Shown here: one piece after another, positions 60,387 through 63,097 of the stretch
Layout: every line of letters starts with the position of its first letter
How positions within the stretch are numbered: the stretch's first letter is position 1
Source of the DNA: Adineta ricciae
Lineage: Eukaryota > Rotifera > Eurotatoria > Adinetida > Adinetidae
Assembly: GCA_905250025.1 (NCBI GenBank)
Contig: CAJNOJ010000009.1
Location: 496,001-560,000, forward strand
Length of the DNA stretch: 64,000 nt
Direction of reading: 5' to 3'
Made by a program: the position numbers and the translations under genes
The notes under the pieces: model-generated
Seen by the model: the letters and a program-made list of their open reading frames with translations, nothing else
Database searches by the model: none
What the model was told of the DNA's origin: nothing

Positions 60387-63097
60387 ATGCTATCACAGTA
60401 TAAAATTCGAGATCGTCATTGTTCAATGATTTGTTTACGATTACTGACAAGTACAAAAGATACTTCTCAGAGCGATCAACAATTGACCAGTAATTTGTGT
60501 CGAGAATATGGTCGTCGAATGAAAACTCATCTTAATCGTGCTGAGAATGATCGAGTATTGAGTTTATTCGATGAACTTATTCAGAAGCATCAAATCAAAC
60601 CAACTTATATGAATTATCTACTTGCGATGCAAGCAATCACCGGTTCAAAACAGAGGATAGAAGCAGATCGATTGCATGATCTCGTAGAACAAGATGATTC
60701 GATTAGGAATGGAACTCAGATGCAAAGAGGACTTGTTTATATGTATGCTGTCGCTCTCGGCGATGTTTCCCATGCAGAGAAACTTGTAGCGGCCATGCCT
60801 AAACCAACTCATATCAGTATATTCGCTACTCTTATGACTGTAAGCAGTCTTTTCTGAGTATGACAGGAAAAGAAATCAATATTGATGATTGTTAGGGATA
60901 CATTCGTCATGGCACGCCTGAAAAAGCTGTAGAATTATTCACTAAAATTGAAAACGACGGACAATTAACACATGATCGATTTTCTTACACTGGTACATAT
61001 CATTCTATGATAAATGAACTTATTCGTACAATATTTTCATTTAGCAATGATCAATGCATGTTCGAAATTAGGCGATTATGCTCGAGGGAAAGAAATCATC
61101 GATCGAATTCTCGCAAATAACGATCCACATTTGCTACAGAACGCAAATCTTATTACTACGATGATTGATATGCTCGTAAAGTTGTTTCCTCGAAGAGTTT
61201 CATTTTCGTGAGGAACTTTGTTTCTAAGGGTAAAGCTGGAAGTCATCTTCAACAATGTATTCAATTATTTAACTCTATTCAATTGGAAAAACGCACGGCA
61301 TCTCTTTACAACGCGATGATGAAAGCATATAACAAATCAGCTGTGCCAAAGGAAACCTTGGCATTATTCGAACAAAGAATTAGTGAAGAATCTTATAAAC
61401 CTGATCGCATTCATTTTCTTCTTGTATTCAATGCGTGTAAGTTCGAAACAAATTAACTGTTAATAAAGTCTTCGCCAACTATTCAGGTGCAAAAATTGGA
61501 CGCGTATGTTTGAAAGATGCACACAAATACTATCAACGAATGCTGGACGATTTGCGTTCATGCGCGCGAAATCCTCGTTGCCGAAACGCTGCTATTGACA
61601 TGTACGTAAATCGATTCTTGACGTGATCGGAGATGTGACGCAAGTTCATTATAGGTTTGGCAAGTGTGCAGATCTTCAAATGGCTAGGAGCATTTTCGAA
61701 ACAAATCAAGATTTAAACGATATTGTCTCATGGGGAACAATTGTAAGTTTAAATTTCTATTTCAAGAGCTGGATCGAAGTTTTCGACATGAAATTTGTTT
61801 TAGCTCAATACTTATGCTCTGCATGCCAATGGACGACAAGTACTTCATATGTTTGAGCGCATGCAAATGGAAACAGAGATCAAACCGAATGCACAGATCT
61901 ATTCCACAGTAGATTTCGTTTTTCAGTTCAGATAGAAATCGACATCATTATTGATTGTGTTGTTTCTAGGTGCTCAATGCTTGTTCGCATTCAGGTTTAC
62001 TTGATGAAGCGAAGAAAATATTTTCCCAATGTAAAATCGAATTACCTGAACTTTGGAAATATATTACAATCGTAACGAAAATAGAAACAAAGATATTTTT
62101 CTCTCTAAGTAGCATTTAGATTGATGCACTAGCTCGAGCTGATCGATTCGACGAAGTAACACATTTAGTAAACATTACTCGTTTTCTTTACATTTATATT
62201 CTTAGGCATTAAAAATGATTGACAAATACGAATTAACAAACCCCCCGTCGATGACAATGTACATGTCCATATTGAGCTGTGCACGTCGCTGCGGTCTTGT
62301 ATCAGTTGCTGAAACTATAGTTCGTCGTCTGGAGGATTTGAATACGTTTCGATCGGAAGATTTGAAAGTTGCCTACGTAATGCTTGGTATACTTTTGTTT
62401 GTTAGGTATCTGTTTGTTTTTCGTCATTGGATCTTTTCTCTAGCTAATCTTTACAATGCTCAAGGTCGTCGAGAAGATGCTTTCAAGATTCGACAGTTAA
62501 TGCGAGACAAGCAAACGAAGAAAATGCCTGGTTTGACGTGGATTGAGATCGATGGAATTTTACATGAGTTCTATTCGAATGAGTAAACTTCTAATTCTAT
62601 GTTTCAACTATGTTTTAACCACTAATGCGTCCATTTAGTCGTCGTCATCGCCAAACTGATGAAATCTATAACGAAGTGGCTCGTATTGATGATGAATTAG
62701 AAAAAGACGGACATATGGTAGATAACAATTCCGTGCCTAGTGGTAGTGTACATAGTGGTAATAAAAAAGATAAATTTCATTTGGTGGCAACGGAGATTGC
62801 TCTGTTTAGAAAAGCTAGCCATTGCTCTAGCATTAATTTCAACATCTTCTGGAAGTTCACTTGTGCTTACAAAGAACCTACGCATATGTCCAGATTGTCA
62901 TGAAATGTTAAAACGTCTATCGAAATTACGCAATCGAAAAATTGTTTTCAGTAAGGAAACTGACAGCTTTCTTTTTGAAACAATACGTTGTCAGGTTATG
63001 ACGAAGAGTTAACAAACAATGTTCTTTTTTCTTAGGAGATTCATTTCGATACCACGAATTCGCTGATGGCCAATGTTCATGCGGCGATTTTCTCTGA
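60387..63097 (+). CDS. Plant-type PPR protein with E-like and DYW cytidine-deaminase domain
   Basis: Fourteen exons, every junction in phase: 60387-60839, 60896-60992, 61045-61175, 61229-61436, 61487-61601, 61655-61742, 61804-61908, 61970-62071, 62120-62155, 62206-62386, 62444-62582, 62639-62757, 62810-62950, 63036-63097; 658 residues. The start (MLSQYKIRDRHCSMICLRLL) looks like a mitochondrial presequence. A run of PPR repeats follows, with plant-style phrases such as AAIDMFGKCADLQMARSIFE, DIVSWGTI and KPNAQIYSTVLNACSHSGLL. Then comes PGLTWIEIDGILHEFY, the E+-like motif. The DYW deaminase follows, with HSEKLAIALALI (active-site HxE), NLRICPDCHEM (CxxC) and the second zinc site YHEFADGQCSCGDFL. 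It ends in DFL instead of DYW. Such proteins bind one RNA site and convert C to U in organelles. Confidence 0.93.

Follow-up and report, generated by a model that had tools for sequence, protein, structure and literature searches.

A divergent plant-type PPR-DYW gene in the bdelloid rotifer Adineta ricciae and a footprint of predicted mitochondrial C-to-U editing

Does a gene of plant type in the nucleus of an animal encode a working RNA editing factor, and do the mitochondria of that animal carry anything for it to edit? The question is raised by a gene of Adineta ricciae lying on the plus strand at positions 60387-63097 of the window, a stretch of 64,000 nucleotides (C9:496001-560000) of the 130.5 Mb assembly. 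The hand-built model of this gene comprises 14 exons and 13 introns, with 1977 nt of coding sequence for 658 amino acids and no internal stops. The introns are 48-85 nt long and all 13 have GT-AG borders. The frame is open throughout, in agreement with the initial annotation, which had described 14 in-phase exons separated by host-type introns. Intron 12 splits the Glu codon of the HSE motif (62757/62810), exactly as that earlier reading of the motif requires. The exons are as follows:

60387..60839, plus strand: exon 1, start Met, presequence-like N-terminus and first PPR motifs
60896..60992, plus strand: exon 2, PPR
61045..61175, plus strand: exon 3, PPR
61229..61436, plus strand: exon 4, PPR
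61487..61601, plus strand: exon 5, PPR
61655..61742, plus strand: exon 6, PPR
61804..61908, plus strand: exon 7, PPR
61970..62071, plus strand: exon 8, PPR
62120..62155, plus strand: exon 9, PPR
62206..62386, plus strand: exon 10, end of the PPR tract and E1; the E_motif match spans exons 10-11
62444..62582, plus strand: exon 11, E2 and PG box (MPGLTWIE, residue 533)
62639..62757, plus strand: exon 12, beginning of the DYW domain, with the His and Ser codons of HSE at 62751-62756 and the opening base of its Glu codon at 62757
62810..62950, plus strand: exon 13, last two bases of that Glu codon (62810-62811) and CPDC (62887-62898)
63036..63097, plus strand: exon 14, RYHEF, CSC (residue 652), DFL end at 63086-63094 and stop

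Pfam profiles for PPR (95.6 bits, cut-off 25), E_motif (39.3 bits, cut-off 27.3) and DYW_deaminase (91.5 bits, cut-off 24; profile positions 24-92 of 93) all match the 658-aa protein above their cut-offs, which bears out the claim that an animal genome encodes the full PPR-E-DYW architecture. The repeats, assigned by hand, follow the order L-S-P-L-S-P1-L1-S1-P2-L2-S2 and lead into E1. E motifs and a PG box lie ahead of the DYW domain. Other features listed by the initial annotation were also recovered: its deaminase and second zinc sites correspond to HSE at residue 590, CPDC at 618 and CSC at 652, and its C-terminal DFL in place of DYW to the actual end of the protein. A second copy of the gene, on contig C15, carries the same three motifs and ends in DIL, the literal DYW being absent there too. 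A terminal DYW is likewise missing from 8 of the 29 plant-labelled rows of the alignment, several of which, here and in the trees below, are of unconfirmed source. Since accepted relatives vary at the C-terminus, the terminal DFL was not treated as decisive, and the lack of a literal DYW does not decide class membership.

The C15 copy is represented by P0001, an annotated A. ricciae protein of 649 aa that matches 98% of the query at 94% identity. It differs from the window gene by 106 substitutions and no gaps across 1977 coding bases, distributed over codon positions 1, 2 and 3 as 25, 16 and 65, and keeps GT/AG at all 13 introns, where identity is 91.9% over 724 aligned bases. Because P0001 matches and the C15 copy is gap-free with every splice site in place, the gene model is not a chance reading. 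The annotation of P0001 departs from our own model of the same C15 DNA at two points, taking the second Met, residue 14, as its start and containing four additional residues at intron 10. The AlphaFold2 model of P0001 (m2e58ae98eada, built on a 28-row alignment; mean pLDDT 85.3, pTM 0.78) has its best Foldseek match in 9kfx, a synthetic PPR-DYW protein with RNA (E 2e-29), and reaches a TM score of 0.83, by target length, against 7o4e, the DYW domain of plant OTP86. On this model P0001 is predicted to have a DYW deaminase fold matching solved plant-type DYW structures.

Comparison of the two copies gave dN 0.028, dS 0.168 and dN/dS 0.17 for the whole gene. The DYW part is the most constrained of those measured (dN 0.018, dS 0.205, dN/dS 0.09). 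With the catalytic motifs present in both copies and purifying selection acting on the gene, and most strongly on the deaminase, the earlier claim that a full catalytic signature has been kept still stands. Residues 1-45 (dN 0.10, dS 0.07) show the rates expected of a fast-evolving leader, import into an organelle being itself predicted.

Conserved motifs may nevertheless serve another function. About ten residues found immediately upstream of HSE in most DYW rows of the alignment are absent from the window protein, and this shortening, together with the non-DYW end, would suit a protein that binds, stabilises or processes mitochondrial RNA without deaminating it, in a bdelloid in which mitochondrial DYW editing is real and is carried out by other factors. 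Such a role appears unlikely given the retention of HSE, CPDC and CSC in both copies, the strong constraint on the DYW part, the variable C-termini of the plant-labelled rows, and the Jatropha protein P0047, which is shortened at the same place. Arabidopsis MEF10 is similarly short before HSE, yet functional.

The gene is one of many. A DYW profile search of the assembly gave at least 127 matches, which after merging of those within 1.5 kb represent about 81 loci on 48 contigs, a count that includes both copies where both were assembled, as well as broken genes. Contigs C461, C311, C322 and C170 each carry four to six loci. Many of the profile matches contain stops in six-frame reading, from introns or decay. 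Among the fetched loci, tblastn detected the window-type DYW only in the C15 copy, and the remaining loci with a C-terminal match show about 22-44% identity. A whole-protein query (7993 candidates scored) found 44 proteins, the second best being 33% identical, and no orthologue from other bdelloids closer than 33-34% was among the matches listed. The restriction of the gene to A. ricciae among these proteins is a further point in favour of a non-deaminating role. The E2-DYW part as the query gave 27 proteins from 478 candidates; of these P0001 alone was named as bdelloid, and the best of the others, P0045, is 46% identical. P0045 (853 aa), which has near-identical P-L-S triplets, is the nearest non-bdelloid DYW protein to the window type, and its owner may point to the donor group.

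On a first phylogenetic tree the expanded bdelloid family formed one clade (100/99), with the window type outside it, near plants at 63/42. In a second tree, to which a gene from contig C45 was added, the window type, the C45 gene and the family fell on one side of a branch supported at 85/91; the family clade (100/98) again did not include the window type, and P0045 adjoined the bdelloid side at 86/94. AU tests that grouped the window type with the family, C45 or P0045 gave p values of 0.095, 0.247 and 0.126, respectively, and rejected none of these alternatives. A separate transfer of the window type from plants is not claimed, its placement near plants in the first tree having given way to the bdelloid side once C45 was included. 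The old horizontal acquisition put forward by the initial annotation is, on these trees, a candidate reading. The window gene and its C15 copy are a divergent type outside the expanded bdelloid family. Exon breaks of the family loci fall at DYW-profile positions of about 97-98 and 184, and those of the C15 copy of the window type at about 106, 153 and 202; the difference suggests that introns entered the family and the window type separately. Judged from the known distribution of the family, a non-animal origin is likely.

Two further loci are of note in their own right. The C45 gene (C45:186429-186701, locus L016, minus strand) is a single-exon E-DYW part, GHSERLAIALSLISTPSG, whose sequence lies between the plant-like and family-like ones and decides the placement of the window type on the tree. 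The gene on C131 (L024:5393-7231), a PPR gene interrupted by few introns, begins with a presequence-like segment and closes with a DYW-like one that carries HTE and CNEC; it represents a third type of bdelloid DYW protein.

If such proteins edit mitochondrial RNA, the mitochondrial genome should contain codons in need of repair. It was located via COX1 at the end of contig C55, at about 464.5-478.2 kb (C55:464500-478188, loci L011-L013). It contains 12 open genes, atp8 being absent, in the bdelloid order as far as the available part of the Rotaria rotatoria paper shows; Rfam and tRNA scans of L012 gave no matches. COX1 and cytochrome b each have one match in the whole assembly. The rest of the 478 kb contig has nuclear composition. 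The position of the mitochondrial DNA at its end is probably an assembly join, and less probably a nuclear copy. Reading of cob and cox1 by eye against solved structures revealed two candidate sites:

C55:467334, first base of cox1 codon 377: CTT (Leu; Phe if TTT)
C55:471813, second base of cob codon 273: TCT (Ser; Phe if TTT)

At the cob site A. ricciae has EWYSLFAY, compared with EWYFLFAY in all five displayed alignments (mammals or unnamed; 39 chains listed). At the cox1 site it has HLHYAL, compared with HFHYVL in solved structures, the codons concerned being CTT (377) and GCT (A380). By comparison with the bovine enzyme, residue 377 lies between the two heme-ligand histidines. For wider comparison the best 120 of 7999 scored cox1 relatives were used, giving 17 bdelloid-type rows, namely A. 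ricciae, P0071 (R. rotatoria) and P0072-P0086 (75-88% identical to A. ricciae), and 104 rows from other animals (P0087-P0190), nearly all insects by name. Phe occupies position 377 in every one of the 104 other animals; A. ricciae, R. rotatoria, P0077 and P0085, four of the 17 bdelloid-type rows, have Leu there. Codon 377 is the only CTT among the 66 Leu codons of A. ricciae cox1, and CTT accounts for 14 of the 537 Leu codons in total. At fourfold sites of this mitochondrial DNA no base is rarer than C (12/940), and because third-position C is so scarce, mutation does not appear to favour C. The available part of the R. rotatoria paper (PMC2784805) indicates that its mitochondrial DNA also avoids third-position C, CTT being commoner there (58).

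Other residues were considered as sites and rejected: cox1 A380 is Ala in 17 of 17 bdelloid-type rows and its C is preceded by G, and the Ser of nad1 PRSRYD is encoded by AGA, beyond mending by a C-to-U change. No strong candidate site was seen in nad4, nad5, cox2 or cox3 when these were compared by eye with the displayed solved-structure alignments. The PPR code of the window protein matches the two candidate sites at one of three and two of three informative positions, and neither is singled out, 39 of 625 mitochondrial Cs scoring 3/3 with a code limited to three informative positions and to repeats assigned by hand. The lack of a clear match is a further point in favour of a protein that does not deaminate.

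A broader signal emerged from cox1 columns that are invariant in the 104 other animals. Columns in which all 17 bdelloid-type rows deviate were left out before counting, as were S-R and M-I pairs, which are likely code artefacts. The remaining columns contain 58 distinct lineage-restricted changes, 17 of which are explained by T-to-C alone (Y18H, W24R, W80R, F101S, F147S, L194S, F220S, I245T, L246S, L246P, F268S, W288R, F305S, W323R, W340R, L381S and I389T); T-to-C is possible in seven more, all Phe to Leu. At other cox1 columns, T-to-C-only changes number 15 of 301 (Fisher p 3.4e-7, inexact given related rows). In a reverse control, based on columns uniform in the 17 bdelloid-type rows and with at least 95% agreement among the 104, T-to-C alone explains none of 40 changes (p 5.9e-5) and possibly explains two of 40 (p 4.4e-5), both p values being inexact for the same relatedness. 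W-to-R in rows P0072-P0086 could represent AGA under another code; without the five W-to-R changes the counts are 12/58 and 0/40 (p 0.0013, again inexact for related rows). On the cox1 tree F377L requires at least four changes and Y18H at least three. Four of the 17 bdelloid-type rows (P0076, P0078, P0080 and P0081) lack any T-to-C-type change. To our knowledge, no process besides editing places T-to-C changes preferentially at invariable residues.

At invariant residues, the cox1 of P0083 alone would call for some seven C-to-U changes, W288R and W340R among them, and, if the sequence is real, it may represent a heavily edited bdelloid-type lineage. A pattern scan for bdelloid cox1 in the viral_contigs collection returned five loci, none of which is similar by tblastn to the 12 mitochondrial proteins; the same scan of genome_contigs returned five bacterial records.

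Database cox1 rows may include nuclear copies or assembly errors, and 15 of the 17 rows come from neither A. ricciae nor R. rotatoria; in one of them, P0086, odd changes cluster at 427-442. There is, however, only a slight chance that the footprint arose in this way. R. rotatoria cox1 carries Y18H, I245T and F377L, and its mitochondrial DNA was, according to the part of its paper available, amplified from genomic DNA by PCR. Decay would moreover spread beyond T-to-C at invariant residues, and the A. ricciae assembly has a single cox1 match.

A different objection denies mitochondrial editing altogether: cox1 F377L and the Ser of cob would be substitutions of an ordinary, tolerated kind, and the DYW proteins would act on RNA of the nucleus or cytosol, or be retained for some other reason. 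In A. ricciae cox1 taken alone, restoring C-to-T changes are not over-represented (2 of 138 possible, one of them A380; G-to-C gives 11 of 267 and G-to-T gives 8 of 267), and a report of C-to-U editing in bdelloid mitochondria was not found in the literature searched, judged mostly by titles and abstracts. Tolerated substitutions, however, are a rather improbable explanation of changes by T-to-C alone that are enriched, not depleted, at invariant cox1 columns, affect Trp, Phe and Tyr, arise more than once at a given residue and oppose the base composition.

The cox1 footprint and the two A. ricciae candidate sites lend indirect support to the suggestion of the initial annotation that the protein may edit mitochondrial RNA. 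Bdelloids probably run plant-type, restorative C-to-U editing of their mitochondrial RNA, driven by PPR-DYW proteins, the first such system in an animal, served by dozens of DYW genes in the nucleus. Sites would be gained and lost between species, and the window gene would be a divergent, catalytically intact member of the set. On balance, the gene is expected to encode an animal mitochondrial editing factor with C-to-U activity, the editing itself being predicted from sequence. As a functional PPR-DYW protein of PLS type within a large bdelloid set, its product would be imported into mitochondria, where its PPR tract may bind one or a few transcripts and a cytidine a few bases downstream would be deaminated to uridine. 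The A. ricciae DYW set as a whole would restore cox1 F377 (CTT to TTT) and the conserved Phe of cob (TCT to TTT), and the window protein may act at one of the sites.

The closest known systems are the PLS-class PPR-DYW factors of land-plant organelles, which share with the window protein the P-L-S repeats, E1/E2, PG box, HxE, CxxCH and CxC. The best solved relatives are the synthetic PPR-DYW 9kfx and OTP86 (7o4e), and plant-like rows are up to 46% identical to the E2-DYW part of the window protein. In contrast to the land-plant factors, the window gene resides in an animal nucleus, is interrupted by 13 short introns, has a DFL/DIL end and encodes about ten residues fewer before HSE. The bdelloid DYW family of Adineta, Rotaria, Didymodactylos and Philodina has the same host group and architecture, and the window gene shares its one-residue-longer or plant-unlike E1 loop; identity is 28-34%, however, the window type has its own branch on the tree, and the family ends in DHF/DYF and not in DFL. 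Naegleria and Acrasis (Heterolobosea) are likewise non-plant hosts of DYW proteins with few mitochondrial sites, but there editing has been shown by cDNA, whereas in A. ricciae it is predicted.

The presence of DYW proteins in bdelloids was already known; what is new is the cox1 editing footprint of bdelloid-type mitochondria. The recognition of about 81 DYW loci, with the window pair as a divergent type, also goes beyond earlier reports. Schallenberg-Ruedinger et al. reportedly named A. ricciae and P. roseola in 2013 and are said to have given candidate sites for Malawimonas, not for rotifers. In the parts available, both PMC4202320 and PMC5295000 state, citing Schallenberg-Ruedinger et al. 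2013, that rotifers have DYW-type PPR proteins, and in the tree of the Acrasis paper (PMC4202320) the Naegleria DYW homologues group with the rotifer clade. Mitochondrial coding sequences of A. ricciae, Habrotrocha rosa, Philodina roseola and P. acuticornis were derived from transcriptomes in PMC3426538, whose available text mentions editing only as sequence handling and places the deposits within JX183989-JX184083 or JW861079-JW861112.

The prediction is directly testable at two named bases in A. ricciae, for which transcript-derived sequences, according to the part of that source available, have already been deposited. If it is true, some residues of published bdelloid mitochondrial proteins are mistranslated, and phylogenies based on these proteins inherit the error. 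Bdelloids would then be an animal test case of restorative editing established after gene transfer and subsequently locked in, as in a neutral ratchet, in which the size and type of the DYW gene family can be compared with the number of editing sites.
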